Shown here: positions 17,716-37,591 of the stretch, piece after piece | Position numbering within the stretch: position 1 is the stretch's first letter | Layout: each line of letters opens with the position of its first letter | Assembly (NCBI GenBank): GCA_026390655.1 | Contig: JAPLFN010000121.1 | Coordinates: forward strand, 35,488 to 79,495 | Direction: 5' to 3' | Length of the DNA: 44,008 bases | From: Candidatus Kapaibacterium sp. | GTDB taxonomy: Bacteria > Bacteroidota > Ignavibacteria > Kapaibacteriales > Kapaibacteriaceae | Position numbers and translations under genes: made by a program | The notes under the pieces: generated by a model | The model's input: only the letters and a program-made list of their open reading frames with translations | The model's database searches: none | What the model was told of the DNA's origin: nothing

Positions 17716-18443
17716 AGATCGCCATATCAAAAGCATCAGGTAGTGATGGATTCCTTAAGTATGGACGCTGGCTCCATGCCGTTGATCCGGATGTGGAAAT
17801 TGTTGACCTCGTTGGGCATGCGCCCGAAGATGCGCTCGCCATGCTCCGCACGTGTGATGGGCTGATACTATCCGGCGGCCCAGACGTTGATCCCGATCGA
17901 TATGAAGAGCCCGCCAAGCGTGCATTGTGCGGTCCGATCGACGCAGAGCGTGATGTTCTGGAGTTTGCCCTTGCAGAAGGCGCGCGCGAACTTTCAATGC
18001 CTGTACTTGGAATTTGCAGAGGCGCGCAGGTACTCAATGTTGCCTATGGGGGATCACTTCATCCGGACCTACCAACAACCAAGCCAAGCGAGATTGAACA
18101 CAGACAGCTCAACGGTGTTGACAGTCAGCACGAAGTACATGTTGAACCAGGTTCTATCCTGAAACACATTGCAGGAGTGTTGGATGCAGGCGTCAATTCC
18201 GTTCATCATCAAGCAGTTGAGAGACTCGCTTCGATCTTTACGCCATCGGCACTCTCACCCGATGGAGTGATCGAAGCGTTTGAATGGGGCGATGCAACCA
18301 TGGGTGGTAAGCCCTTCCTCCTTGCAGTGCAGTGGCACCCTGAGCGGATGAGCTATGAGGAGCCCCTTTCCCTGAACATTGCCAGACACTTTCTTCATGA
18401 AGCAGATGCGTACTCGGTATTGATCAGGACCGCATCAGAATAG
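17712..18443 (+). CDS. Gamma-glutamyl-gamma-aminobutyrate hydrolase family protein (peptidase C26)
   Basis: This class I glutamine amidotransferase-fold enzyme of 243 residues has the nucleophile Cys near 101 in LGICRGAQVLNVAYGG. GLILSGGPDVDPDRY lies near 56, HEVHVEPGS near 137, VNSVHHQAV near 158, and the His of the triad is in AVQWHPERM near 210. C26 enzymes hydrolyse gamma-glutamyl conjugates such as gamma-Glu-GABA in putrescine breakdown. No other putrescine gene is present, so the substrate is open. It is coupled to lpxK by an ATGA overlap and overlaps the convergent HhH gene by 9 bases. Confidence 0.85.
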   Translation: MKIAISKASGSDGFLKYGRWLHAVDPDVEIVDLVGHAPEDALAMLRTCDGLILSGGPDVDPDRYEEPAKRALCGPIDAERDVLEFALAEGARELSMPVLGICRGAQVLNVAYGGSLHPDLPTTKPSEIEHRQLNGVDSQHEVHVEPGSILKHIAGVLDAGVNSVHHQAVERLASIFTPSALSPDGVIEAFEWGDATMGGKPFLLAVQWHPERMSYEEPLSLNIARHFLHEADAYSVLIRTASE

Positions 18444-20162
18444 AAAGCCTGCTCTTTTGGATGGGAGAAATGTAATGTCCACCTGAAGTGTCGCCGACAT
18501 TTCAGAACGACTCTGTCCGTCAACAACTCTTGAATCATGGTGAATTGCACATGAGAGCGCAAGCCACGATGTTGCCTGCAATCGTGCAGTGATGGTACGG
18601 CGGGTGCCAATCCCATTTCCCGTTACGGTTTGCAGTGCGCCTGCAACTGTAGCATCAAGCATGCGCGGAGCAATGTCACCAGAGGTTGACGAGAATTGTG
18701 CCCAACGAGCGCGCAATGATAGTGCAGTAAAGATCTGCCAACGCAGATCAATGAACATCAGAGCACCGCGGTCACTGAGCGCCGAGCGCCACCAATGTAA
18801 GCTGCGAAGGTCTACACGCAATCGTCCCTTAAGACTGGGTACGATAGGGAAATCGATATCAGTACGAAAGGTAAACGCAGTTGAGATATCCATACGCCGG
18901 AGATCATTCTCGGCGTGTGCGTCAGTGTTTCGCTCGTATCGCAGCCTAGTGCTTATCACAACACCCTTCATTGGTCTACACGAGATGTCCGTTGTTATGT
19001 TTACAGCGGTGGTAGGAAGAGGCACCAAGAAGGATCTACTGATCCGCCCTCCATAGAGGAGTGAAACAGCTCCCGTGAACATTGGTGACGGATGGAATCT
19101 GGTTGCAACAAGGATGCCTGTGTGATTGACAGGTGAGGACACAGTGTTCGATGTTGAGCCGTATGGTGCGTGGAAGTTTGGCGAATACCACCACAACGCC
19201 GCACCAAGATCTACGGTTCGCGTTGCGTAGTGTGCATTCGCTTGCAGCGCGAGTTGCTGAGCCCCGTCCAATGCGGCTTCGGCGACAATGCTGCCACCCT
19301 CGAATTCATGGGACGTGCCGATTGAGGCGCTTGTCTCCTGCATCCCGGTGACAACGGACGTGGTTAGTGAGGAAGCTCCAGTGCGCAGCGAACTAGAGAA
19401 TGCAATCAACGTCTCCCGTTTGTTCTCAACAACCATGGTGCTAACTGCGCCGATCACATCAATGGGTGAAGACGGAATGGATGCATGCACAGAGATGCCT
19501 CGCAATGCACCGTCTGTTGTGGAAGAGGTCCATGGCCGCATTTGCCATTGAGTACTCCTCGATGTCAATACATCAGAGGCGTTGCGAGATAGTCCGCGTG
19601 CCGTGCCCATTATGAGCCCGGTGTTGAGACGAAGTGCATAGTCGCCAATAACAATGTCAACCTCAGAGACTCTCGCGGTGGCCCACGCGCCTGAAATCTG
19701 CGTGTCATCGGCACTACGGGCAGCATAGATTGCACCCGCACGTCCGAGTGCATAGTCTACATCTACTCTTGCCATGGTTGTTCCGGTGGACGAAGTGGGT
19801 GCTCGCATTCGCGAGTCAACTGCGCGAATGATTCCCGCACAAGAACCGTCAAGTGTTGTGCATGACGTAAGGAGAACAAACTGATCGGACGTCAGACAGA
19901 GAGTATCGGCAAGTTGCTCGATAGATCGCACGTTCCCGGCGTTGACCGTTCGGATGATTGCATGGGCCGTGCGCTCCGAGATACCCGGTATCTCCGTGAG
20001 GTCCTGCGCCGTGCAACAACGGAGGCACATGGGATTTTCTCGTCTACGCTCCAAAATGTCAAGTGCCGGCGCAGCCCACGGACCATCAAGAAGATCGTCG
20101 AGTTGTGCCAGAGTTAGGCATGGGGCTATCCAGAATGCCCACGCTACCATGAATCTTACCAT
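18435..20162 (-). CDS. Exported helix-hairpin-helix protein with predicted outer-membrane beta-barrel
   Basis: The 575-residue protein has a signal peptide (about 1-19, ending LTLAQ). A Cys-rich stretch (CLRCC) follows, then a ComEA-like HhH motif DLTEIPGISERTAHAIIRTV (residues 54-73) and a second helical half. From about residue 130 to the end the sequence is Ser/Thr-rich and made of alternating polar/hydrophobic strands with many aromatic residues, ending in Phe. I infer an outer-membrane barrel. HhH motifs bind DNA without sequence specificity; in ComEA this holds incoming DNA. A role in DNA binding at the surface is plausible but unproven. Its start overlaps the stop of the upstream small barrel gene by 7 bases, so the two are probably translated together. 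Confidence 0.62.
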   Translation of the reverse strand: MVRFMVAWAFWIAPCLTLAQLDDLLDGPWAAPALDILERRRENPMCLRCCTAQDLTEIPGISERTAHAIIRTVNAGNVRSIEQLADTLCLTSDQFVLLTSCTTLDGSCAGIIRAVDSRMRAPTSSTGTTMARVDVDYALGRAGAIYAARSADDTQISGAWATARVSEVDIVIGDYALRLNTGLIMGTARGLSRNASDVLTSRSTQWQMRPWTSSTTDGALRGISVHASIPSSPIDVIGAVSTMVVENKRETLIAFSSSLRTGASSLTTSVVTGMQETSASIGTSHEFEGGSIVAEAALDGAQQLALQANAHYATRTVDLGAALWWYSPNFHAPYGSTSNTVSSPVNHTGILVATRFHPSPMFTGAVSLLYGGRISRSFLVPLPTTAVNITTDISCRPMKGVVISTRLRYERNTDAHAENDLRRMDISTAFTFRTDIDFPIVPSLKGRLRVDLRSLHWWRSALSDRGALMFIDLRWQIFTALSLRARWAQFSSTSGDIAPRMLDATVAGALQTVTGNGIGTRRTITARLQATSWLALSCAIHHDSRVVDGQSRSEMSATLQVDITFLPSKRAGFLF

Positions 20163-20935
20163 GGCATTTGCAGGGCGATGTGTGGTGAAAAGCCTAGCCC
20201 CTCAAAGTGCTGCAAGCCCACAACCACGGCGAGGTCTCCGAAGGCAGATATTCGCCCATCTAGCCGAATAGTCGTGGGTGCGGTTAGAAGGCCAAGAACC
20301 AATTCCAACACCGGGACGGGACGCCATACACCAGTGAGCAAGAGCCCCATCTCATTGGTACTGTTCATGATGACGTCTAGGGCGAGATCGTAGAAGTCGA
20401 GGTTGACCATTGCGGCGACCCTAACCCACGGAGCAGCCCGAGAACCCACTACCGCAAGATCATCGATGGATGCCCCAAAAGTCCACTCTTTTCGTCGAAA
20501 AACGGCGTTTATGCCCACTTTTGCGGCACAAACGCTCGAAAAACCACGAAAAACGCTCAGATTCAATGATGACCGGACCCCGATTCGAAAGTCCGTTCCA
20601 GCGGACCAATTGGAGAATCCGCCTACTGTAAGATTTGACCAACCCTCGGAAGCACTACCAGACACCCACAGAAGAAGGGGGATATGAGGCAGAGAAGCTG
20701 CAACAGTGCCTCTGGACAGCTCGGTGAGGCCATATGGGGCTGGTTCAGCACTTGCAGCCCATGTGCTATCAATGGCCCGTGCCGGAACAGCAATTGCATC
20801 AATTGGCGTCAAGATTCCACATCCCGAGGCACTCTGTTGGGCATAGGCAATTACCATCAACGTATTCCAACATATAGCCGTCACCACAAGGGTGCGTAGA
20901 TTCGCTGGTACCCACTTTTGTCGAGATGGTTTCAT
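20156..20935 (-). CDS. Exported beta-strand-rich protein of unknown function, partner of the HhH barrel gene
   Basis: The 259-residue product starts with a positively charged N-terminus and a hydrophobic segment ending IAYAQQS, a likely signal peptide of about 33 residues. The remainder is rich in short alternating strands (for example FRIGVRSSLNLSVFRGFS and WVRVAAMVNLDFYDLALDV) and ends in a Trp residue, as small outer-membrane barrels often do. I do not recognise a family. The stop overlaps the start of the HhH gene. The start codon overlaps that of the divergent porD gene (shared CATG at 20933-20936), so its promoter must lie inside porD coding sequence or the true start is downstream. Confidence 0.6.
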   Translation of the reverse strand: MKPSRQKWVPANLRTLVVTAICWNTLMVIAYAQQSASGCGILTPIDAIAVPARAIDSTWAASAEPAPYGLTELSRGTVAASLPHIPLLLWVSGSASEGWSNLTVGGFSNWSAGTDFRIGVRSSLNLSVFRGFSSVCAAKVGINAVFRRKEWTFGASIDDLAVVGSRAAPWVRVAAMVNLDFYDLALDVIMNSTNEMGLLLTGVWRPVPVLELVLGLLTAPTTIRLDGRISAFGDLAVVVGLQHFEGLGFSPHIALQMPW

Positions 20936-21840: not shown

Positions 21841-23058
21841 GTGTCTGAAGTAGCACGGAAGCACGACGAATATATGCGTGAGGCACTTGTTTTAGCAGCA
21901 TCAGCTGCTGAAGCAGGAGATGTGCCCGTTGGATGTGTGGTCGTACGGGGCAATGAGGTTGTGGGACGCGGTGCGAATGAAATTCAAAGATCGGGCGATC
22001 CAACCAGGCACGCAGAAATGGTAGCGATCGAAGAAGCCGTCCGAACGATCGGCGAAAAGTTTCTGGAAGAGTGCACCCTTTACGTAACGCTCGAGCCATG
22101 CGCAATGTGCGCAGGGGCGATCGTGCTCGCGCGAATACCCACAGTAGTGTATGGCGCAGCAGATGAAAAAACCGGTGCCTGCCGAAGCGTGTTTGAGATC
22201 CTGGACAACCCACAACTCAACCACCGCGCTACTGTACGAACCGGTATTCTTGAGCAGGAGTGCTCAGCGATTCTCAGTGACTTTTTTACCGTACAGCGTA
22301 AGCGCGAAACCACTGATAATGTTGTGAAGACACAGGCCGAGTATGGAACATCCTCAGTGAAGCCGGGTGGCGTGTTGTGGCTTGTGCCAACACCTATTGG
22401 CAACCTTGATGACATGACATTGCGTGCCGTGAAGACGCTTCGAGAGGCAGATGTTATCGTCTGTGAGGATACGCGACACTCAAGCCCCATGCTCAAGAGA
22501 TATGATGTTCCCAAGAAACCATTGTTGAGCTATCATGAACACAACGAGCGTGATCGTGCTCGCGAGATCGTGGAGCGAGTAGCCTCCGGCCAACGTGTTG
22601 CTCTTATAAGTGACGCCGGAATGCCGGGTATCAGTGACCCTGGGTATCGTGCTGTCCGCGCATGTATTGAAGCCGGGCTCACAGTGACGGCGTTACCCGG
22701 CGCTTCGGCAATGATCACTGCGGCTGCGGCTTCTGGCCTACCAACGGACATTCTCACATTTGTTGGATTCCCTCCACAGAAGAAGGGGAGGACGGCTTTC
22801 CTTGAACGAGTCCTTCGTCAACCGGGAACGATCATTATGTATGAGTCGCCGTATCGGATCGTTGACCTTATGCGAGACATTGAGCAGATAACCGGACCCG
22901 ATCGTCAGGCAGTTGTTGCCAGAGAACTATCTAAGCTCCATGAGGAATATGTTCGGGGCACCGTTCATTATGTGATAGATGTTCTCGCTTCTCGCGCATC
23001 TGTCAAGGGTGAGTGCGTTGTGTTGATAGGGGGCGAAATAGAAGTGGGAGAGTCCTAA
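21841..23058 (+). CDS. tadA-rsmI: Fusion of tRNA-specific adenosine deaminase TadA and 16S rRNA methyltransferase RsmI
   Basis: One uninterrupted frame of 405 residues encodes two enzymes. Residues 1-155 are TadA, which deaminates A34 to inosine in the tRNA-Arg anticodon. The zinc site is visible as HAE at 57-59 and PCAMC at 86-90. Residues about 177-405 are RsmI, which 2'-O-methylates C1402 of 16S rRNA, with LVPTPIGNLDDMTLRAV, CEDTRHSSPML, LISDAGMPGISDPGYR, LPGASAMITA and MYESPYRI. A linker of about 20 polar residues joins them. The two are normally separate proteins. It begins with GTG one base after porD; an ATG at 21874 is an alternative. The stop overlaps tmk (TAATG). Confidence 0.88.
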   Translation: MSEVARKHDEYMREALVLAASAAEAGDVPVGCVVVRGNEVVGRGANEIQRSGDPTRHAEMVAIEEAVRTIGEKFLEECTLYVTLEPCAMCAGAIVLARIPTVVYGAADEKTGACRSVFEILDNPQLNHRATVRTGILEQECSAILSDFFTVQRKRETTDNVVKTQAEYGTSSVKPGGVLWLVPTPIGNLDDMTLRAVKTLREADVIVCEDTRHSSPMLKRYDVPKKPLLSYHEHNERDRAREIVERVASGQRVALISDAGMPGISDPGYRAVRACIEAGLTVTALPGASAMITAAAASGLPTDILTFVGFPPQKKGRTAFLERVLRQPGTIIMYESPYRIVDLMRDIEQITGPDRQAVVARELSKLHEEYVRGTVHYVIDVLASRASVKGECVVLIGGEIEVGES

Positions 23059-23684
23059 TGTTTGTTTCCTTTGAAGGCATTGACGGAAGTGGCAAGAGCA
23101 CGCAACTCGTCTTGTTACGAGAAGTACTCGAGCAACGAGGACATACCGTTGTGACGATCCGCGAACCAGGTGCTACACTTCTGTCAGAATCTATTCGCGA
23201 GATCCTCCTCAGCACGAAGCAGACCATTACACCAACGGCCGAGCTCCTACTGTTCAGCGCTGCCCGAACCCAGCTTGTAGAGAAGGTGATCCAACCAACA
23301 TTGGAAAGGGGCTCATTCATTCTTTGTGACCGCTACGTAGACAGTACTACAGCGTATCAGGGATATGGGCGAATGTTGGATCTAGAGAGTGTTCGTCTCT
23401 GTAACAGGATGGCCACAAAAGGGGTCATGCCTGACGTGACGTTCTTCATCGATGTGGGATTTGAGCAGGCTCAGCAACGGATGCAGTTCGACTCATCAGT
23501 CGGCGATCCTGATAGGATGGAACGGTCTGGGCGTGACTTCTTTGAGCGAGTGCGAAACGGATATTTAGCGATTGCCATTGATGAGCCACACCGATTCGTT
23601 GTCATTGATGGTCTACGGGAGCGTTCAGAAATTCATGACGACATTGTTTCTTCATTGCAGCAGCGTTCTGCATTCAGTATCTGA
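23058..23684 (+). CDS. tmk: Thymidylate kinase
   Basis: Tmk phosphorylates dTMP to dTDP. The 208-residue protein has the P-loop FEGIDGSGKST at the N-terminus, IREPGATLLSE near 35, the LLLFSAARTQL segment, CDRYVDSTTAYQGYGR near 93 (DRY/H motif) and DVTFFIDV near 128. The start ATG overlaps the tadA-rsmI stop in TAATG. The frame is open upstream to 23013, but the family starts at MFVSFEGIDG. Confidence 0.95.
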   Translation: MFVSFEGIDGSGKSTQLVLLREVLEQRGHTVVTIREPGATLLSESIREILLSTKQTITPTAELLLFSAARTQLVEKVIQPTLERGSFILCDRYVDSTTAYQGYGRMLDLESVRLCNRMATKGVMPDVTFFIDVGFEQAQQRMQFDSSVGDPDRMERSGRDFFERVRNGYLAIAIDEPHRFVVIDGLRERSEIHDDIVSSLQQRSAFSI

Positions 23685-23687
23685 CCT

Positions 23688-26243
23688 ATGATGAAAAGCA
23701 TTTTACACGTATCTCTCACAGTTGCTCTGGTGTTAATCTCATGTGTCTCTGCTCACGCGCAGAACACTGTGGACGCACGGTTGCTGTTCACACCGAATGC
23801 CGTTTCTAAATCCGCGATCAATGCTCAGCAGACCACGTTTATACGGCCGATGCTCTTACAACATCGTGTTGCACGTGAGGCATTTGAAGCTGAGAGCAAA
23901 GAGGTGACACTTACGAATTTCCCTTTGCCGGCAAATGAGTCTGCGACGTTGATCTTGGAGCGCACTCCTGAGGTTTTTGACGCGAACACAGAGTTCTACA
24001 CATACACGAAGGACGGTAAGATCCCAATCAGGGTCCGTCCGATCGTATCGTACCGTGGCACTGTGAACGGCGACGTGAACACAACGGTGTCTCTTCACTA
24101 TAGCGAAGGAAACATCACTGGGTACATTCTCGCAGCCAGCGGCAGGCGCACGGTGATTGGTCGTGATTTTTCCGGTGAGCGCTCCGAAGAAGCAACGCCT
24201 CATGCAATAGCTGATGAAAAAACAATGTTTGGTGTTGATCCACTTTCGCGATTCGTCTGTGGAAATGATGAGCTTCCGACTGATGGAAAACGAACAATGG
24301 AGCAGATGACTCTTCTGTCAAAGTCCAAGAGTACAGAACGAGTGCAGGCCGATGATCTCCATGAGTTTAGAATGGCAATGGTGCTCCGTGAAGACATCGA
24401 CAGCGTAATGAAGGTTCGTGGAGAAACGGACGAAGAGATTGCACAATACTTTATGAAGATCGTAGCAGCGATGGCACAGGCCTATCAGCAGGACATTGGC
24501 GCGATGCTTTATGTTGGGTACTTCGAAAAATTCACAAAAGCGTCGCCCTCCGGATTTGTTAACAATGGACGTCAACCTGGGCAACTTCTCACGGAATTCT
24601 CTCGCAAGTGGTCGCAAACCAAGGGGTCTGTGTCCCGCACGGTTGCACATTGCTATACGTTGATTCGTCCGTCTGGCGGACAGTTCGTTGGTGGTATCGC
24701 TTTCCTGGATCAGATGTGCAACTACAACTATGGCGGTGGCTATGGCGTGTCGACAATGTTCCTAGACGCGCCGCAAATACCCGGCGATCCAAACAAGGCT
24801 AACGCATTTGTATGGGACGTTTTTGTGAGCGCACATGAAATGGGGCACAACATTGGCGCCTACCATACACACAGCTGTTTTTGGAATCCCCCAATAGATA
24901 CATGCCAACTTCAACAGGATGGCACGGATGCGTGTCTCGATGATCCCTCCCTTCGGAATGTGATTCCAGGCACGATCATGAGTTACTGTCATTTGGTGAA
25001 CGGCCAAAGTACACCACTTACCTTCGGTCCTCGTGCCTCTGCATACATGCGAGAGCTTGTTGCAGCTTCCAATTGTACCCCCCTCGTCACAAAGCCAACG
25101 GTTCAAATCACGGAGCCGCGCGGATCTGAGTCGTTTGCCCTCGGTGAGAAACTGACCATTCGGTGGGTTTCTGCGCGCGTGTCTCGCGTGAACTTGGAAT
25201 GGGGCAAAGCCTCTACAGGTCCATGGACGAGTATTGTAAAGAATGTGAATGCCTCCGACGGGATGTTTGTGTGGACTATCCCTGTAGTTCCTTCCGAAAC
25301 ATTTTGGATCCGCATTCAGGACGCCACGAGCACCTCAGTGAGTGACACATCGGTGGCTAGTTATCTCTACGTTGCGCCAGTGATCCTTGATGCCCCTAAG
25401 GGTGGCGAGCGTCTTGGTCAGGGTTCGATTTTCACGATTCGATGGTCGAAGCGCGAAGGGGTTGGCAATGTTAAGCTCGAGTTCGCTCCCGATGGTACAA
25501 CGTATCAAACGATTGATGCATCTTCAAGCGGCACATCGTTCGAATGGACTGTGCCCGTGATCTTGACAAGCACGGCGCGTGTGAAAGTTTCGTCCATTGC
25601 AGCTCCTGAAGCCCCTTCTACAAGTGGGGCGTTCTCGATCGGCGTTCGGAGATTTGCACTTGAGATACCCCTCGAGAATTCTTTCATCTGCAAGAACAAA
25701 GCGAATCAATACAGTTGGAGCTCGGACTTCGTGCAGTCAATCCAGATCCAGTACTCTACCGATGACGGGAGTAATTGGCGAAGTGCGACTCAGCAAACCA
25801 CTACGAATGCTACGTTAGGTACGGTTACAAGTCGCAACGTGAACATGAACAGTGTTCCCGGTGGTACACCGATTCGAATCCGCGTGATCGAGGCAAAAAC
25901 AAACGAGGTTTTGGACACGCGTAGTTCTATGCGGTTGGATTCTTGTAGTCTGGTTTCAGTGGACGAAGTAACCGATACCGAGCCATTTGCAATTGCGTCG
26001 GTGAGCCCAAATCCTGCTGTATCGATCATACGACTTCTTGTACGGTCAGACCATACTCGGCAGTGTGCTGTTGTGCTGGTAACGAATGATGGCAAAGAGA
26101 TAGCTCTCTCGAGTGCTGTATCTTTGCCGGCTGGATCGTCAACAGTTGAGGTTTCTCTCAATGATGTTCCTTCGGGATCATATCAGCTGAGTATGAGAGA
26201 CGGGAACGCTCAGTCTACTGTATCCGTTGTAGTAACACGATAA
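23688..26243 (+). CDS. Secreted metzincin metalloprotease with T9SS sorting domain, copy 1
   Basis: The 851-residue protein starts with a signal peptide ending SAHAQN. Residues about 30-200 look like a propeptide. The reprolysin-like (M12B) catalytic region follows, with zinc motif HEMGHNIGAYHTH near 382 and Met-turn TIMSYCH near 430. Three strand-rich modules (about 465-760) contain ITEPRGS, LDAPKGGERLG and LEIPLENS as boundaries. The end is a T9SS-like domain starting SVSPNPAVSIIRLLV. It is predicted to be exported and surface-bound or released, with unknown substrates. It starts 3 nt after tmk and is the first of three tandem paralogs. Confidence 0.87.
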   Translation: MMKSILHVSLTVALVLISCVSAHAQNTVDARLLFTPNAVSKSAINAQQTTFIRPMLLQHRVAREAFEAESKEVTLTNFPLPANESATLILERTPEVFDANTEFYTYTKDGKIPIRVRPIVSYRGTVNGDVNTTVSLHYSEGNITGYILAASGRRTVIGRDFSGERSEEATPHAIADEKTMFGVDPLSRFVCGNDELPTDGKRTMEQMTLLSKSKSTERVQADDLHEFRMAMVLREDIDSVMKVRGETDEEIAQYFMKIVAAMAQAYQQDIGAMLYVGYFEKFTKASPSGFVNNGRQPGQLLTEFSRKWSQTKGSVSRTVAHCYTLIRPSGGQFVGGIAFLDQMCNYNYGGGYGVSTMFLDAPQIPGDPNKANAFVWDVFVSAHEMGHNIGAYHTHSCFWNPPIDTCQLQQDGTDACLDDPSLRNVIPGTIMSYCHLVNGQSTPLTFGPRASAYMRELVAASNCTPLVTKPTVQITEPRGSESFALGEKLTIRWVSARVSRVNLEWGKASTGPWTSIVKNVNASDGMFVWTIPVVPSETFWIRIQDATSTSVSDTSVASYLYVAPVILDAPKGGERLGQGSIFTIRWSKREGVGNVKLEFAPDGTTYQTIDASSSGTSFEWTVPVILTSTARVKVSSIAAPEAPSTSGAFSIGVRRFALEIPLENSFICKNKANQYSWSSDFVQSIQIQYSTDDGSNWRSATQQTTTNATLGTVTSRNVNMNSVPGGTPIRIRVIEAKTNEVLDTRSSMRLDSCSLVSVDEVTDTEPFAIASVSPNPAVSIIRLLVRSDHTRQCAVVLVTNDGKEIALSSAVSLPAGSSTVEVSLNDVPSGSYQLSMRDGNAQSTVSVVVTR

Positions 26244-26279
26244 GTAATTTTCTCTCAACATATCTTTTGTAGTGACATA

Positions 26280-28838
26280 ATGGCAAGTACCCTGACTCGA
26301 GTTGGTGTTTTCTTTGTAAGTCTCATCATGTTTTCATCGTTGCTAACCGCACAGAAGACCGTCGATGCCAGACTCATGTTCTCTCCGATCAATGTGGGGA
26401 AGAACGTACCGAATGCCCAAGTAAACTCGTTCGTTCGCTCAATGATGTTGCAGAACGAGCTGGCCAACACCGCTTTTGATTCGCGGGATCAGCGCCTCAA
26501 CCTTTCGAATTTCCCAATGCCCGGCAACGAGTCGGGTACGCTTGTTCTTGAACGTACGCGTGCCGTCTTTGATGCCAATACTGAGTTCTACACTCATACG
26601 AAGGCAGGAAAGGTCGCATTCAAAGTGAGGCCGATTGTGTCGTACCGTGGCACTGTCGATGGTGATAAGTCAACGCAGGTCTCTCTGCACTATAGCGAAG
26701 GGAATCTCACAGGCTTTGTTATAGGAGCCAATGGAAGACGCACCGTTATTGGTCGCGACTATTCGCTTCATCGCACTTCAGATGGGACTCCTCACGCTAT
26801 TGCTGATGAGGTTACGATGTTTGGCGTGGATCCTCTTTCTAAATTTCTCTGTGGCCAAGAAGAACTTCCGGTAGACCAAGACGCAATGGCGCGTCAGATG
26901 TCAGTTCCCTCACGACTGAAGGGGGCGGAGAAGACGCAAGCTGAGTATCTGCGCGAGTTCAAAGTTGCAATGGTCCTCCGCGAAGACATTGACAGTGTAA
27001 TGAAGTTGCGCGGCGAGACTGACGAAGAGATTGCTCAATATTTTATGAAGATCGCGGCCTGCATGGCGCAGCCATATCAGCAGGAGCTCGATGCCCTACT
27101 CTATGTTGGGTACTTTGAGAAGTTCACGAAGGACGAACCTTCAGGGTACGTCTATGACGGTAGAGAGCCGGGTAAACTGCTTCAAGAGTTTTCCAGAAAC
27201 TGGGCCAGCGTAGCGAATAATGTCGATCGGACTGTAGCCCATCTCTATGCCTTGGTTCGTCCTGTAAACGGTACGTTTGTTGGGGGCATTGCCTATCTAG
27301 GCCAGCTCTGCAATAAGAAATTTCAAGGTGGTTACGGAGTCTCTACGATGTACCTCAACGCATCTCCATTGCCGGGAGACCCGAATAGGTCAAACGCGTT
27401 CGTATGGGATGTCTATGTAAGTGCACATGAGATGGGACACAACATTGGGGCATATCACACGCATTCTTGCTATTGGAGCCCCCCGATCGATACATGCCAG
27501 TTGAAGTCCGATGGCACTGATGCGTGTTACGATCTCCCTTCGTTGCGTCGAGTCATTCCAGGCACGATCATGAGCTATTGTCACCTTGTGAACGGCAGTA
27601 GCACGCCAATGACGTTCGGAGACCGCGCCTCGGAACGCATGCGTGGGTGGGTGGCTGCTTCTCAGTGTACTCCATTGGTGACCACACCAACGATTCACAT
27701 TACAGAGCCACGCGGTTCGGACTTCTTCAATGTTGGCGATAAGATGACCATTCGGTGGTCGTCCGCTCGTGTGTCCGCAGTAAACATCAGCTGGGGTGGC
27801 TCTGACAGGGGGCCATGGACAGACATTGTCTCTAACGTTAACGCGGCAGATCGCCAGTATGTTTGGACCATGCCTGTTATTTCCGCGTCGCCATTCTGGA
27901 TCCGCGTTTCTGACGCCTCCAACGAGTCTGTACGCGATACGTCCATCGCAAGCTATCGCATAAACATCCCAGTGGTCCTCGATGCTCCAAAAGGTGGCGA
28001 GCGAATTGGTGGCGGATCTGCATTTACTGTGAGATGGACAAAGGGTGCTGGTGTTGGAAATGTAAAGGTCGAATTCGCGCCAGACGGTGCAACGTTTGAA
28101 ACACTCGTGGCCTCATCTGCTGCCACGTCGTTCGCATGGACCGTTCCGGTCATTACAACGGAGAACGCACGCATTCGTGCGTTTGCCATCAATGCTCCAA
28201 CCGCTGCTTCAACAAGTGGTTCTTTTGCGATCGGTGTCCGCCGGTTTGCACTTGAGATCCCGGTAGAAAATGGTTCTCTATGCAAGAATCAATTGAATCA
28301 GTATCGTTGGAGTGCAGACTTTATTCCCACCATTCGAATTCAATACTCTACTGATAATGGGGCTAATTGGCGCAATGCAACTCAACAATCCACGATCGAC
28401 GCTGCATTGTGGCAAGTGTTTAGCCGTAACATCAACATGAGCGGAGTGCCGAAAGGCACAAAGCTGAAACTTCGCGTGATCGACGCGGTAACTGAAGAAG
28501 TTCTAGATACCCGCAGCAACCTGACGATGGATTCGTGTGATGCTCCTGTGTCCGTTAGCGAGCTTGCTGGAGAAGTGCCCTTTACCATCACATCGGTTTC
28601 CCCTAACCCAGCGTCATCTTTTGTAAGGATCGGCGTCAGCTCCAGCGAGAATCTAGGTGCCAAAGTACTTTTAGTGACCAGCGACGGACGAGAGATCGAG
28701 CTTCGTTCCGAACTCATGCTGAATTCCGGGTCCTCCACCGTCGAGATCCCGATTGGTGACGTTGCCGCCGGGATGTATCGCCTGGTTATCCGAGTTGGTG
28801 CTGCCCAGTCCTCAGCATCAATTACCATAGTGAGGTAG
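26280..28838 (+). CDS. Secreted metzincin metalloprotease with T9SS sorting domain, copy 2
   Basis: The 852-residue paralog has the same architecture as copy 1: signal peptide ending LLTAQK, propeptide-like region, HEMGHNIGAYHTH near 382, TIMSYCH Met-turn, strand modules and a C-terminal domain starting SVSPNPASSFVRIGV. Its catalytic half is closest to copy 1 (shared FVWDV, HSC and VIPGTIMSYCHLVNG), while everything from ITEPRGS (near residue 473) onward is nearly the same as copy 3. This switch suggests recombination between copies. The spacer to copy 1 is 36 bases with a TATCTTTT sequence that could be a weak -7 element. Confidence 0.87.
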   Translation: MASTLTRVGVFFVSLIMFSSLLTAQKTVDARLMFSPINVGKNVPNAQVNSFVRSMMLQNELANTAFDSRDQRLNLSNFPMPGNESGTLVLERTRAVFDANTEFYTHTKAGKVAFKVRPIVSYRGTVDGDKSTQVSLHYSEGNLTGFVIGANGRRTVIGRDYSLHRTSDGTPHAIADEVTMFGVDPLSKFLCGQEELPVDQDAMARQMSVPSRLKGAEKTQAEYLREFKVAMVLREDIDSVMKLRGETDEEIAQYFMKIAACMAQPYQQELDALLYVGYFEKFTKDEPSGYVYDGREPGKLLQEFSRNWASVANNVDRTVAHLYALVRPVNGTFVGGIAYLGQLCNKKFQGGYGVSTMYLNASPLPGDPNRSNAFVWDVYVSAHEMGHNIGAYHTHSCYWSPPIDTCQLKSDGTDACYDLPSLRRVIPGTIMSYCHLVNGSSTPMTFGDRASERMRGWVAASQCTPLVTTPTIHITEPRGSDFFNVGDKMTIRWSSARVSAVNISWGGSDRGPWTDIVSNVNAADRQYVWTMPVISASPFWIRVSDASNESVRDTSIASYRINIPVVLDAPKGGERIGGGSAFTVRWTKGAGVGNVKVEFAPDGATFETLVASSAATSFAWTVPVITTENARIRAFAINAPTAASTSGSFAIGVRRFALEIPVENGSLCKNQLNQYRWSADFIPTIRIQYSTDNGANWRNATQQSTIDAALWQVFSRNINMSGVPKGTKLKLRVIDAVTEEVLDTRSNLTMDSCDAPVSVSELAGEVPFTITSVSPNPASSFVRIGVSSSENLGAKVLLVTSDGREIELRSELMLNSGSSTVEIPIGDVAAGMYRLVIRVGAAQSSASITIVR

Positions 28839-28909
28839 TTCACTAGAAGGCATGAGGGAGCCTCCCGCCATTGCGTATCTTTATGGGATCTACCAACAGA
28901 GAGATCTAT

Positions 28910-31465
28910 ATGATACACAAGGCAGTTTTCTCCTTGATCTTTCTTCTAACCCTTTGCTTTTCTGGGTTAGCTGTAAAAGCTCAGACAACGCTTGATGCTC
29001 GATCGCTGTTCATACCTGCGCAAGCGTCAAAGAACTCGCTTGATGTACAAACCAATGGCTATATCAAGTCAATGATGTTGCAACATAGTGTTGCTCGATC
29101 TGTGTTTGAAAAGCAAGATCGGTACGTCACGCTAAAGAATTTTGAATTGCCCGGTGACGTTACCGGCGATCTCGTGTTGGTGAGAACGCGTGCTGTGTTT
29201 GACGCCAATACGGAGTTCTACACGCATACGAAGGCGGGCAAGGTTGCCATGAAAATACGTCCCGTTGTTTCCTATATAGGAACAGTCAACGGTGATCGAA
29301 AGACGAAGGTCTCCATTCACTATAGTGAGGGTGAGATTACTGGCTATATCCAAACCGCAAATCGCAAACTCACCCTTATCGGCCGCGACTTTAGCAAACC
29401 GCGCAGTGAAGGGGCAACTGCGCACACGATTGCAGATGAAGAAACGATGTTGAGTCTTGACCCGATAGCACGGTTCATATGTGCGAGCGAAGATCGGCCA
29501 TTAGATCCTGAGACCGTTATAAGAAGTATGTCGATTGCGCCAAAAGCCAAGAACGTCGAAGCGAGTCAAGCCGACTATCTCCGTGAATTCAAGCTTGCGG
29601 TGGGCTTGCGGGAAGATATCGACAGCGCAATGAAGGCACGTGGACAAACGGACGAAGAGATCACTCAGTACTTTGTCAAGATCGTGGCGGCGGTTTCGCA
29701 AACATTTGAGCAGGAACTTGACGCTACGATCTACTTGACGTACTTCGAAAAGTATACCAAGGATGAACCAACCGGGTACTTCTACGATGGAAGGAACATT
29801 CCTTCGTTGATTCAGGAGTTTGCACGGGACTGGTCGCAGTCGCACAACAGCGTGAATCGAACCGTAGCCCACTTGTTCGCACTCTATCGCGGAGGGGGCT
29901 CAAATGTTTTGGGGATCGGTTATCTAGGTCAGATGTGTAACAAGAAGAACGACGGTGGGTATAGCGTAACCGGCATGTTCATGAACGCGTCTCAGATACC
30001 GGGCGACCCGAAAAGGTCAAATGCATATGTCTCTGACGTTGAAGTTGTTGCACATGAGATAGGTCACAACATCGGCGCATATCACACGCATAATTGTTAT
30101 TGGAGCCCACCTATCGACACGTGTATGCTTCAATCAGATGGTACTGACGCTTGCTTTAAGGATGCTAATCTGAGACATATTGTCGATGGCACCATCATGA
30201 GCTACTGTGAAGATGTGAATGGTGAGCGAGTTCCTATGACGTATGGCGACAAGGTTGGAGAGAGAATGCGCGGCTGGATGGCAGCTGCACCGTGCAATTT
30301 GCTTATTACCAGTCCAGCGATACATATCTCGGAACCTCGAGGATCTGGGCTTTATAACCTGGGCGAAAAGATGACCATTCGTTGGTCGTCTGCGCGTGTT
30401 TCAACGGTCAACATCAGTTGGGGTGGTTCAGACAAGGGGCCATGGACCAACATCGCTACAAATGTTGACGCTGCTGACCGGCAGTATCTCTGGACAATTC
30501 CGGGCATTCCCGTGTCCCCATTTTGGATTCGCATCTCAGATGCTACGAATGAGGCAGTGCGCGACACGTCCATTGCGAGTTATCGAATCAATATTCCCGT
30601 TGTCCTCGATGCACCGAAAGGTGGAGAGCGTGTCGGTGGCGGATCAGCATTCAACATTAGGTGGACAAAGGGTGCCGGTGTTGGAAATGTCAAGCTTGAA
30701 TTTGCGCCTGATGGCGTGACGTTTGAGACATTATTGGCTTCATCGAGTGCTACGTCCTACACGTGGACCGTTCCGATCATCGCTACAGAAAACGCACGTG
30801 TGCGGGTGTTTGCGTTTAGTTCACCGGATGCCCCTTCTACAAGTGGTGCTTTTGCGATTGGTGTCCGACGGTATGCGCTAGAGATCCCTGCCGAGAACGC
30901 ATCGCTTTGTAAGAATCAGTTGAACCAGTATCGTTGGAGTGCAGATTTCATTCCCACCATACGAATTCAATACAGTACGGACGATGGGGCTAATTGGCGC
31001 AACGCCACGCAGCAGTCTACGATCGAGGCATCAATGTGGCAGGTGTTTAGCCGCAATATCAATATGAGTGGTGTACCGAAAGGCACAAAGTTGAAACTCC
31101 GTGTGATCGATGCCACAACGGAAGAGGTTCTTGATACACGTAACAACTTGACGATGGATTCGTGTGATGCTCCTGTGTCAGTTAGCGAGGTTGCTGAAGA
31201 CGTACCATTTGCCATCACATCGGTGTCCCCAAACCCAGCGTCGTCCGTGGTTCGAATTGGTCTCGCCACTTCAGAGTCACGTCAATATGATATCATTCTC
31301 ATCTCGAGCGAGGGCAGGGAGTTAGTACTTCGATCCGATGTTTCTATCGCTTCCGGTTCTACCATAGTAGAAGTTCCGCTCAACAACGTTGCAGCAGGTT
31401 CGTACCGAATTGCTGTCCGAGGCGATGGTATGCAGGTGGTTGCTCCCGTAGTTGTCATTCGCTAA
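28910..31465 (+). CDS. Secreted metzincin metalloprotease with T9SS sorting domain, copy 3
   Basis: The third paralog (851 residues from the ATG at 28910) has a signal peptide ending AVKAQT, propeptide-like region, zinc motif HEIGHNIGAYHTH near 381, Met-turn TIMSYCE, three strand modules and a T9SS-like domain starting SVSPNPASSVVRIGL. Its catalytic domain is the most divergent of the three (EVVAHEIGH; NLRHIVDG), hinting at a different substrate. The frame is open to 28871, but the signal peptide begins at MIHKAVFSLIF. No terminator is seen before the proline dehydrogenase gene 22 bases downstream. Confidence 0.87.
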   Translation: MIHKAVFSLIFLLTLCFSGLAVKAQTTLDARSLFIPAQASKNSLDVQTNGYIKSMMLQHSVARSVFEKQDRYVTLKNFELPGDVTGDLVLVRTRAVFDANTEFYTHTKAGKVAMKIRPVVSYIGTVNGDRKTKVSIHYSEGEITGYIQTANRKLTLIGRDFSKPRSEGATAHTIADEETMLSLDPIARFICASEDRPLDPETVIRSMSIAPKAKNVEASQADYLREFKLAVGLREDIDSAMKARGQTDEEITQYFVKIVAAVSQTFEQELDATIYLTYFEKYTKDEPTGYFYDGRNIPSLIQEFARDWSQSHNSVNRTVAHLFALYRGGGSNVLGIGYLGQMCNKKNDGGYSVTGMFMNASQIPGDPKRSNAYVSDVEVVAHEIGHNIGAYHTHNCYWSPPIDTCMLQSDGTDACFKDANLRHIVDGTIMSYCEDVNGERVPMTYGDKVGERMRGWMAAAPCNLLITSPAIHISEPRGSGLYNLGEKMTIRWSSARVSTVNISWGGSDKGPWTNIATNVDAADRQYLWTIPGIPVSPFWIRISDATNEAVRDTSIASYRINIPVVLDAPKGGERVGGGSAFNIRWTKGAGVGNVKLEFAPDGVTFETLLASSSATSYTWTVPIIATENARVRVFAFSSPDAPSTSGAFAIGVRRYALEIPAENASLCKNQLNQYRWSADFIPTIRIQYSTDDGANWRNATQQSTIEASMWQVFSRNINMSGVPKGTKLKLRVIDATTEEVLDTRNNLTMDSCDAPVSVSEVAEDVPFAITSVSPNPASSVVRIGLATSESRQYDIILISSEGRELVLRSDVSIASGSTIVEVPLNNVAAGSYRIAVRGDGMQVVAPVVVIR

Positions 31466-31487
31466 TTCTTGTGAACGTGGGGGAAGT

Positions 31488-32393
31488 GTGAGTCTGTTTA
31501 CGAAGCTCGTTGTTGTCAGTCTCCCGATCATTCCGAAAAGCATAGTTCGTCTTGTGGCTCAGCGATACATCGCTGGGCCACATCTCGTTGATGCTGTTGC
31601 CGTTACGAAGGACCTTATGGCTCGAGGTGCATCGTCTACGATCGACGTGCTCGGTGAATTTGTTTCGTCGCGGGAGCGTGCAATAGCTGATACTGCTATA
31701 CAAGCGTCGGTTATTGATGCAATTCATGGCAATGGCCTCGCATCGTACTTGAGCGTTAAGCTCACGTCATTGGGGCTGGACATTGATCATGACTTTGCCT
31801 ACGAGAACGTTTCGTCTCTCGTCAAGAAGGCCGCCGCCCTCGGAGTGTTTGTTCGCATGGATATGGAGAACACGCCATATACCGACATCACTCTCGACTT
31901 TTATAGAAGGCTGCGGCGAGATGGGCACAACAATGTCGGCGTGGTAATCCAGGCATATCTGCGTCGCTCCGAAGCGGATGTCTTGTCCCTACTAGCGTAT
32001 GATCCGTCTGTACGCCTCTGCAAGGGGATTTATGTGGAGAGCGAAGACCATGCATTTAAGGACCCGGAGGAGATCCGTTCCAGTTATCGGTCGCTGTTGC
32101 GACTCCTACTTTCCGCAAAAGGTCAAACCCACATTGCTACCCACGACGAGGCACTCATTGTTGATGCGGAGAAGCTGCTCGCTGAAAGACTACTGCCAAA
32201 AGAACGGTATGAGTTTGAAATGCTGCTTGGCGTGAGAGAGGATCGGCGAAACATCCTCATCCGCAATGGACATCCTGTCCGTATCTATGTGCCTTTTGGT
32301 GAAGATTGGTATGGATACTCTACACGTCGCCTCAAGGAGAATCCGCAAGTAGCGGGCTATGTTGCAAAGGCCATACTAACGGGAAGAGGATGA
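31488..32393 (+). CDS. Proline dehydrogenase
   Basis: The monofunctional proline dehydrogenase oxidises proline to pyrroline-5-carboxylate with FAD, at the membrane. The 301-residue protein has family signatures: SVKLTSLGLDID near 95, FVRMDMENTPYTDITLDFYR near 125, GVVIQAYLRRSEAD near 150, VRLCKGIYVES near 175, HIATHDEAL near 218, FEMLLGVRED near 244 and RIYVPFGEDWYGYSTRRLKE (FAD/substrate site) near 267. I prefer the GTG at 31488, preceded by GGGGGAAG, over the TTG at 31452, which overlaps copy 3. No P5C dehydrogenase lies nearby. The stop overlaps the next gene by ATGA. Confidence 0.9.
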   Translation: MSLFTKLVVVSLPIIPKSIVRLVAQRYIAGPHLVDAVAVTKDLMARGASSTIDVLGEFVSSRERAIADTAIQASVIDAIHGNGLASYLSVKLTSLGLDIDHDFAYENVSSLVKKAAALGVFVRMDMENTPYTDITLDFYRRLRRDGHNNVGVVIQAYLRRSEADVLSLLAYDPSVRLCKGIYVESEDHAFKDPEEIRSSYRSLLRLLLSAKGQTHIATHDEALIVDAEKLLAERLLPKERYEFEMLLGVREDRRNILIRNGHPVRIYVPFGEDWYGYSTRRLKENPQVAGYVAKAILTGRG

Positions 32394-35684: not shown

Positions 35685-36620
35685 TTACGGCAACAGTTCT
35701 ATCTCGTAGCGTGAATTCTGTGCCTGTGAAACGGTCTTCCGCTCGCCCTTCGGCGAAACGATTGTTGCCGTCACAGAAAACCTAATAGCGTTCGATTTTG
35801 AGATTGTGTAGCCCCCTTCAACATCGAGAAGGGAGCGCGACGTGCCAGTGATGGACGAGGCATCGATCCTCGCGGAGAATGGCGCGTTTTTCGGTAGGGG
35901 GCGAACACGTATAGCACCATCGATCGTTGCTGCTATCGACGCCATCCGTCGATTGCCAAGCGCTTTCACATCGACAATGTGGTAGTTCGCCATGGTGGAG
36001 ACAAGAAAAAGTTCGGCAAGGGGCGTTGTCATCGCGTTAGACCAATTGCCATTTGAATCAATCTTCACGGCAGGATATGGAATGATTTCTTGCCCATGGA
36101 ATGACCCATAAACAGCCGATTTTACCTGCTCTGCCAGCTGATTCATTAATTCCGGCGAGATTGCTTGCTTAGCACTTGCGACCATCTTCTTGACAATTGG
36201 TGATACGTCGCCAACCTGTAAAAGAGCGCCACGTGGAGATACATAGATTGAGACCTCTTCACCGATGATGGCGTTGAACTGTACGAAGTCTGGATTTGTG
36301 CGCTGCACACTACGGCCATCGGATCGTACAGCGCGAACGGTTTTCGTATAGACGTGCGAGCTGGTAGTTGATGAGACAGCTGAGTCGGGACCGGCCTCTG
36401 AGAACTGTCGAACGCGATACTGAAACACATCGCCTTTCTTATAGCGCAACACAAATGAATCGAGCTTTGCCTCGGCGAACGCGATCGTTGTGGCACTTGC
36501 AGTATCTGCTGCAGTCAGATCGCCGGAGCCCGCCTTGGCTGCCTCATGGGGTGAATCGTTCCCAGTGCAGGCTGCTATGACGGCCGATAGAATTAGGAAG
36601 GCGAGAAGTCGAGTTACCAT
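35685..36620 (-). CDS. Exported lipoprotein of unknown function (DUF6263-like)
   Basis: The 311-residue product has a lipobox (VIAACTG) after a short hydrophobic segment. The frame is open to 36704, but I chose the ATG at 36620 (MVTRLLAF) because it opens the signal. The mature part begins with a Ser/Thr/Ala-rich linker, then a strand-rich domain with FQYRVRQFS, TKTVRAVRSDGRSVQ, VSIYVSPRGALLQVGDVS and VKIDSNGNWSNAM. The order resembles the neighbouring upstream gene, so the two may be diverged paralogs. I cannot assign a function. It overlaps the upstream gene by 7 bases and is followed by the GAF/GGDEF gene. Confidence 0.62.
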   Translation of the reverse strand: MVTRLLAFLILSAVIAACTGNDSPHEAAKAGSGDLTAADTASATTIAFAEAKLDSFVLRYKKGDVFQYRVRQFSEAGPDSAVSSTTSSHVYTKTVRAVRSDGRSVQRTNPDFVQFNAIIGEEVSIYVSPRGALLQVGDVSPIVKKMVASAKQAISPELMNQLAEQVKSAVYGSFHGQEIIPYPAVKIDSNGNWSNAMTTPLAELFLVSTMANYHIVDVKALGNRRMASIAATIDGAIRVRPLPKNAPFSARIDASSITGTSRSLLDVEGGYTISKSNAIRFSVTATIVSPKGERKTVSQAQNSRYEIELLP

Positions 36621-37591
36621 TGATATTGACCTGTCAGTTTCCACTGAGTGGTGGTGGTAATACGGTGCATGAATGCCTCGTTGAGAATCTTTGCACGGAA
36701 CCAAGCATTCGTCACGGTGGTCACTTCGTTTATCGTACCACTGGCAGAGAGGGTAAGGGTATTGTCGACAATAGCCCCACCGTCATTTACCGTACTCAGG
36801 TATGGAATGCCGTAAATATGCACGACCTGTTTCTTCCGAACAGGAATAGTATCCTTTGTGATCAGCGAATAGAGTCCGCCCGCGTACGACGCAAACCGGG
36901 AGGTCACCTTGCCATCAAAGACAACGCCATCTATCCTAAGAGTAAGGTTGTGATTCCACGTCGAGTCAACGGCTTTACGAAGACCGGGAATAACACGCTT
37001 TTGAAGATCGCCATATTGTAACAAGTTCTCACGGTCCAGAGATTGCATCCAAATTGAATACACCACGGTGTCGAGATCTGCGGAATTCTGCTGCAAATAG
37101 TCCCGCCAATACTCCACCTGGTCTCCAGAGATTTTTGTGACTTCGCCATACGGACTGACCGTGAGTTCAAAGGTCCTGTTGAGCGGTCCAATGTAGTTGT
37201 TTAGGTCGGCGAAGTTTTTAGGCGTTATATCCTTCTGAGAGTCGTACGTGATCTGCTCGCCCTTTGCCTTAAAGGCATAGATGAGTGAATCAATATTTAC
37301 TACAAGCTTGGCAATGCCATCCAATGATTCAATGCAGCGAACAGTTACGAAGTAGGTCACCTTGCGTTCATATGTCTTTTGTGAAGAGTCGCTATGAGTC
37401 CGTTCTACCGTTGTTTGTTCAACAACTTCGTAATTCTGGGCGATACCCGATCGGTACAGCGCTTGAAGACGATACTCTCGTCCGGCAGGCGCGGTGCCCG
37501 ATTGTTGGGCAACCACCATGCCAGCCATAGACACTGCGCATAAGGCGAAAGCGAAGAGGGGTCTTAATGTCATTGTGATGCGTTGAATCAT
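36614..37591 (-). CDS. Exported protein of unknown function, probable paralog of the adjacent lipoprotein
   Basis: The 325-residue protein has a signal peptide (ending GMVVAQQS). An ATG at 37573 is an alternative start giving a cleaner signal. The mature part shows QNYEVVEQTTVERTHSDS, TYFVTVRCIESLDGIAKLVV, FELTVSPYGEVTKISGDQ and DSTWNHNLTLRIDG, a series that parallels the neighbour: strand, VSPxG, then Asp-Ser-x-Trp/Gly. I do not recognise a characterised family beyond a weak DUF6263-like look. It is the first gene of the minus-strand run towards the GAF/GGDEF protein. Confidence 0.6.
   Translation of the reverse strand: MIQRITMTLRPLFAFALCAVSMAGMVVAQQSGTAPAGREYRLQALYRSGIAQNYEVVEQTTVERTHSDSSQKTYERKVTYFVTVRCIESLDGIAKLVVNIDSLIYAFKAKGEQITYDSQKDITPKNFADLNNYIGPLNRTFELTVSPYGEVTKISGDQVEYWRDYLQQNSADLDTVVYSIWMQSLDRENLLQYGDLQKRVIPGLRKAVDSTWNHNLTLRIDGVVFDGKVTSRFASYAGGLYSLITKDTIPVRKKQVVHIYGIPYLSTVNDGGAIVDNTLTLSASGTINEVTTVTNAWFRAKILNEAFMHRITTTTQWKLTGQYQW

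Follow-up and report, generated by a model that had tools for sequence, protein, structure and literature searches.

How has the middle one of three neighbouring genes for secreted metzincins come to resemble the upstream gene in one half of its length and the downstream gene in the other? The question is raised by a genome of an uncultured Candidatus Kapaibacterium (131 contigs totalling 2.63 Mb, completeness 92%), in which the 44,008 nucleotides of contig C39 that were analysed, here called the window, carry tmk, then three co-directional metzincin genes on the plus strand, then proDH:

23013..23684, plus strand: thymidylate kinase (tmk), the conserved left neighbour
23688..26243, plus strand: copy 1, an M12B-type metzincin of 851 aa, orthologue of the first such gene of the related genome G010
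26280..28838, plus strand: copy 2, 852 aa, with a canonical catalytic half and an Ig half common to copy 3
28871..31465, plus strand: copy 3, 864 aa counted from TTG, with a catalytic half orthologous to the second gene of G010
31452..32393, plus strand: proline dehydrogenase (proDH), the conserved right neighbour

For copy 3, an ATG at 28910 is more likely the start than the TTG. A scan for promoters and terminators returned sites no more frequently than in shuffled sequence. A chimeric assembly was considered and appears unlikely, as the copies differ by about 20% even inside the patch described below, which speaks against a mis-join driven by identity. Elsewhere in the window, an apparently second tandem pair is formed by two adjacent DUF6263 proteins on the minus strand (35685-37591), kept in most relatives, and another two minus-strand neighbours (18435-20935) lack a Pfam match at 1e-5, are present in most family genomes and evolve fast (22-53% identity).

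The three copies share an architecture of prodomain, catalytic domain, three Ig-like domains and type IX sorting tail. The structure model of copy 2 (mean pLDDT 79.8, pTM 0.61, 24 rows; domain bounds set by eye) predicts a signal segment, a beta-rich prodomain (aa 26-181), a catalytic domain (about 224-463), an Ig-like region (about 466-752) and a tail (766-852):

26355..26822, plus strand: prodomain of copy 2, aa 26-181, from the structure model
26949..27668, plus strand: catalytic domain of copy 2, about aa 224-463
27426..27458, plus strand: zinc-binding motif HEMGHNIGAYH of copy 2
27675..28535, plus strand: three Ig-like domains of copy 2, about aa 466-562, 563-653 and 655-752, from the secondary structure of the model with bounds by eye
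28575..28835, plus strand: type IX sorting domain of copy 2, about aa 766-852, with PF18962 below the Pfam cut-off and a match to the mirolase CTD

An HExxHxxGxxH zinc site and the Met-turn MSYC are present in all three copies, Reprolysin_5 (PF13688) scores above the Pfam cut-off in each and the catalytic fold compares with snake venom M12B enzymes at a Z of about 22; judged by motifs and modelled fold, copies 1 to 3 are M12B/reprolysin-like metzincins and predicted proteases. With respect to secretion, PF18962 remains below the cut-off for each whole protein (E 7e-5 to 5e-4), copy 3 lies above and copies 1 and 2 just below the cut-off in a sorting-domain scan of the genome, and the tail matches the mirolase CTD 8qb1 (E 0.0044; for the structure of the mirolase tail see excerpts of PMC11285876). 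SprA_N scores above the cut-off in the host genome, and with a sorting tail and the SprA of the host both found, the three copies are predicted to be exported by type IX secretion. Genome-wide (G000), 100 sorting-tail matches were obtained at E<=0.001, three of which are these genes; for a genome of only 2.63 Mb this is an extensive repertoire of type IX cargo. Read by eye, all 13 genus copies whose start is complete (e.g. 26280-26354) have a small residue and then a glutamine where the signal segment is probably cleaved (AQ 12 times, GQ once), which resembles the Q-rule described for Bacteroidetes in an excerpt of PMC5837995.

The proform resembles that of an animal protease. The human ADAM17 zymogen was the top solved match to prodomain and catalytic domain together (Z 26.0, rmsd 3.9, 333 aligned), and the profile of the proform matched ADAM17 over both domains (E 4.2e-9). 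The prodomain model alone aligned with the ADAM17 prodomain at a Z of 8.8 (rmsd 4.4, 129 aligned), tied with the unrelated first row of that structure search, 6o38_K (Z 9.2); the prodomain profile alone found ADAM17 first at an E of 0.042, which is suggestive only, and a Pfam scan of 24 prodomains returned no credible family. One residue stands out in the alignment of the two proforms:

26850..26852, plus strand: codon of C191 of copy 2, invariant in 24 of 24 aligned relatives and placed opposite the cysteine of VCG in the alignment with the ADAM17 prodomain

C191 is probably a cysteine switch, by which the enzyme would be held latent. The likeness to ADAM17 lies in the fold of prodomain and catalytic domain taken together, more tentatively in the prodomain by itself, and in the placing of this invariant cysteine, whereas the identity amounts to 14% and the catalytic domain is followed here by Ig-like domains and a type IX tail.

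Over its whole length copy 2 is 62% identical to copy 1 and 65% to copy 3, an identity that is unevenly distributed: 80% with copy 1 and 61% with copy 3 at aa 401-470, then 60% with copy 1 and 77% with copy 3 at aa 471-560, 63% and 79% at aa 561-650 and 61% and 90% at aa 651-765. The best single breakpoint is located at aa 484 of copy 2 (2-lnL range 471-494, nt about 27690-27760), a range that includes the peptide ITEPRGS at nt about 27700, where the catalytic domain ends. None of 20000 shuffles of the protein alignment reached the observed max-descent statistic. Since the modules of a protein differ in evolutionary rate, single-copy orthologues were scored in the same way for comparison: z did not exceed 5.3 among 354 tests within the genus and 5.1 among 1320 within the family, compared to 8.4 for copy 2, which places the mosaic beyond ordinary rate variation. 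With silent sites alone, shuffling gave the switch no significance, its statistic being reached by 2343 of 5000 and 2545 of 5000 shuffles. The first G010 gene, treated as a child of copies 1 and 3, has a z of 6.2, likewise above the controls, which weighs against the reading favoured below.

The two halves of the proteins support incompatible trees. With aa 26-470 (N-half), copy 2 joins the pair of copy 1 and the first G010 gene (98/96; the pair itself 94/90), and copy 3 groups with the second G010 gene (100/100); with aa 471-765 (C-half), copies 2 and 3 group together (100/99), as do copy 1 and the first G010 gene (98/96). AU tests, which took in 10 family outgroup rows, rejected copies 2 plus 3 (p 2e-6) as well as copies 2 plus 3 plus the second G010 gene (p 0.019) for the N-half, and for the C-half rejected copies 1 plus 2 plus the first G010 gene (p 2.8e-4) and copy 3 plus the second G010 gene (p 0.013); with 14 genus rows only and aa 466-786, the latter two groupings had p values of 0.0017 and 0.006. 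Copy 2 changes partners between the halves, from copy 1 in the catalytic part to copy 3 in the Ig part. A preliminary description of this DNA had proposed three tandem secreted metzincins with copy 2 as a mosaic of the other two and had named a uniform profile and one tree for both halves as observations that would contradict it. The peptides it quoted were all found in their places, the profile is not uniform, with a switch at aa 471-494, and a common tree is rejected by the supported topologies and the AU tests alike, so that the mosaic is confirmed by profile, breakpoint and trees. Among the groupings not rejected are a clade of copies 1 and 2 in the N-half (p 0.082), so that the tree does not fix the age of copy 2, and one clade of copies 1, 2 and 3 with the first G010 gene in the C-half (p 0.254), which together with a 30 to 21 split of the G010-informative sites allows either copy 2 or copy 3 to be the donor.

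The region shared by copies 2 and 3 was delimited by fitting one block of raised identity between them. On proteins the block covers aa 488-785 (84% identity inside vs 56% outside; 2-lnL range of the start 472-493, of the end 777-786); on nucleotides it gains 51 lnL units, compared to 32 at most in 9 other pairs, none with these bounds:

27735..28613, plus strand: patch in copy 2, 79% nucleotide identity to copy 3 inside and 59% outside, uncertainty about 27693-28637
30362..31240, plus strand: matching patch in copy 3, converted from copy 2 coordinates with an offset of +12 aa

The patch of about 0.9 kb comprises the three Ig-like domains and has its 3' end near the start of the sorting tail. 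The likeness had been described as extending from ITEPRGS onward; its start is upheld, but it stops at aa 777-786 and does not run to the end of the gene. In the tree of the sorting tail copy 1 groups with copy 2 (85/87) and copy 3 with the second G010 gene (81/83), and copies 2 plus 3 were not rejected by AU tests (p 0.096 and 0.118); the 3' bound of the tract therefore rests on the drop in identity, the 5' bound being firm. Copies 2 and 3 share an internal tract with a tree of its own, one of the features expected of gene conversion between paralogues.

With nine single-copy genes of the genus as polarising set, the two likenesses differ in age. Copies 1 and 2 agree against copy 3 at 90 sites of aa 26-470; at 64 of them the shared state is present in the single-copy orthologues and the copy 3 state absent, at 11 the shared state is absent from them, and the fourfold sites of copies 1 and 2 are saturated in this segment (43 of 154 identical). 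At aa 471-765 copies 2 and 3 agree at 77 sites, copies 1 and 2 at 16 and copies 1 and 3 at 15, with 17, 5 and 4 shared states, respectively, that are absent from the single-copy genes; states exclusive to copies 2 and 3 number 12 in aa 471-786 and 4 in aa 26-470. In segments picked after the protein profile was seen, copies 2 and 3 are identical at 49 of 93 fourfold sites in aa 561-765 vs 49 of 149 in aa 26-560 (p 0.003) and vs 21 of 70 for copies 1 and 2 in aa 561-765 (p 0.004), and have no silent excess in aa 471-560 (13/37). Retained ancestral states and saturated silent sites indicate that the match of copies 1 and 2 is mostly inheritance and that of copies 2 and 3 younger; the former, which had been noted as part of the exchange, is present, but is mainly composed of retained ancestral residues. 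The polarised sites suggest that the catalytic cleft of copy 3 is the derived one and that copies 1 and 2 kept the ancestral type. As about half of the fourfold sites differ in aa 561-765, the exchange between copies 2 and 3 is not recent; their longest identical run, at about aa 758, measures 31 nt, and the non-significant shuffle test on silent sites and the missing silent excess in aa 471-560 imply an old exchange, or an older first part.

Copy number was compared among relatives, which are mostly Kapabacteria/Ignavibacteria MAGs. The tmk-proDH slot is syntenic in 22 of 22 other family genomes as far as the contigs extend, and contains one gene in 19 of them and two in G010, contig ends cutting the slot in G020 and G022; a whole-genome search with copy 3 (E<=1e-100) gave one match in 21 of the 22 and two in G010. 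A comparison of copy number, suggested in the preliminary description as a check, accordingly finds relatives mostly single-copy, G010 with two and the window genome with three. In a tree of five neighbour genes, G010 adjoins the window genome with G002 outside both (SH-aLRT 99 and 100). In the catalytic half the first G010 gene pairs with copy 1 and the second with copy 3, so that orthologues of copies 1 and 3 are present in G010, arranged alike, and copy 2 is what the window genome has in addition. A duplication before the origin of the genus was assessed by asking whether the five copies from duplicated loci form a single clade: the N-half is compatible with such a clade (p 0.318), the C-half rejects it weakly (p 0.0375), and there the five together with G002 form a weak clade. 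A contig search with copy 2 alone as query gave no matches; with an alignment of relatives it gave 108 loci, 80 of which were retained. In a genome of the same order, locus L034 (G031:C42:7040-12055) shows two neighbouring same-strand matches to the copy 2 query and is possibly an independent tandem pair.

The reading that best accommodates copy numbers and synteny, the incompatible trees and the bounded patch, all of them observed, is tandem duplication, a second A-type copy and later gene conversion of the Ig stretch between copies 2 and 3, to which we assign a probability of about 0.75; mechanism and order of events are what we infer. The ancestral state would be a single secreted metzincin gene in the tmk-proDH slot, duplicated for the first time, most simply, in the common ancestor of the window species and G010. 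Lineage A, lying upstream and comprising copies 1 and 2, would have kept the ancestral catalytic domain and the downstream lineage B (copy 3) altered its cleft, and copy 2 would be a second A-type copy derived from a further duplication. After the split from G010, gene conversion, in which homologous recombination leaves the flanks unexchanged, would have made the Ig stretch of about 0.9 kb alike in the adjacent copies 2 and 3, while the catalytic halves and, probably, the sorting tails stayed apart. The path with the fewest steps would be to duplicate A first and to convert the Ig region afterwards.

An unlikely alternative, though the least unlikely of three, has copy 2 arise as a duplicate of copy 3 with its 5' half overwritten by an A-type gene, which would yield the same hybrid and agrees with a donor that could be copy 2 or copy 3. 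Against such 5' overwriting, saturation at fourfold sites is seen between copies 1 and 2 in the 5' half but not between copies 2 and 3 in aa 561-765, so that the 3' likeness is the younger one, and the sorting tail leans to copies 1 plus 2. Still less probable is a single unequal crossing-over, which had been proposed side by side with gene conversion for the boundary of catalytic and Ig parts: tandem direct repeats and a sharp 5' switch would suit it, but from [A][B] it produces A, B5'/A3', B, the opposite hybrid of the observed A5'/B3' middle gene, which is the deletion product, and the A-B order in G010 and the termination of the shared tract within the gene argue against it as well. The proposed exchange is supported, and gene conversion fits better as its mechanism. 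That no exchange occurred and that unequal rates, fast in the catalytic half of copy 3 and in the Ig half of copy 1, mimic the mosaic is disfavoured as very improbable: most of the 5'-half sites common to copies 1 and 2 are ancestral and no end branch of the genus is longer in the C-half tree than that of copy 1 (0.41), but the AU tests with family outgroup rows, the orthologue controls, which never match the copy 2 score, and the silent-site excess in aa 561-765 oppose it.

Under duplication followed by Ig-stretch conversion, the catalytic novelty at the locus would reside in copy 3. At 18 positions where the 12 other genus copies do not vary, copy 3 and the second G010 gene share a change; the positions are confined to aa 181-436, the Ig domains and the tail being free of them. 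Among the changes are those directly after the Met-turn:

30209..30214, plus strand: E-D directly after the Met-turn MSYC of copy 3 (position converted)

Of 26 family rows in which the motif occurs, 24 have H-L here, and E-D is confined to these two genes. The 18 changes further include CA in place of CG next to the invariant cysteine, CG being the state of 22 among 24 rows in which the pattern was found. Such substitutions may have changed the cleft, specificity and latency of copy 3. An origin of its catalytic domain outside the genus was considered and rejected, as it falls inside the genus clade (90/93, catalytic tree), which makes divergence in place simpler. The suggestion in the preliminary description that exchange pairs a new catalytic domain with a shared surface-display module is not borne out, as the shared part is the Ig stalk and not the surface-targeting sorting tail, and as copy 2 carries the canonical catalytic domain, the changed one being that of copy 3. 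It is a tentative and rather doubtful idea that the tandem serves as a specificity workshop, in which the clefts diverge and the Ig stalk is repeatedly homogenized as a cassette, the same docking or display stalk being kept by proteases that differ in specificity.

This kind of event is already known; what characterizes the present case is that the tract lines up with the stalk. Excerpts of PMC5266723 describe modules of the gingipains RgpA and Kgp and of HagA of Porphyromonas gingivalis with identical repeats within and between genes in combinatorial order, for which gene conversion was proposed. Gingipains are likewise type IX cargo, built of propeptide, catalytic domain, Ig fold and then repeated modules (PMC5266723), but are clan C25 cysteine peptidases with adhesin repeats and strain-level variation, whereas the three genes here are tandem M12B metalloproteases with 79% nucleotide identity in the patch in one genome. 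The KLIKK proteases of Tannerella forsythia combine, according to excerpts of PMC4404884, different catalytic domains with a common C-terminal region, for which fusion and recent tail acquisition were suggested. Several secreted proteases with differing catalytic domains and one common region are found in both cases; the near-identical part of KLIKK proteases is, however, the sorting tail, which is among the least alike parts here (CTDs 45-51% alike, with ends other than KLIKK), the Ig stalk being shared instead. Concerted evolution in prokaryotes, with paralogues of the same genome closer than orthologues as an excerpt of PMC6053082 has it, is alike in paralogue likeness, but affects here only one gene module in one genome. 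None of the papers listed in literature searches deals with these genes.

The locus offers a delimited case of concerted evolution acting module by module on secreted proteases in an uncultured lineage, in which single-copy relatives polarise the changes. The proform of copy 2 (26355-27668) and its relatives may have a bearing on the source of ADAM-type proforms. If the likeness of the stalks is kept by selection, the ligands of Ig modules on type IX proteases would be approachable by comparison of copies 2 and 3 with copy 1.
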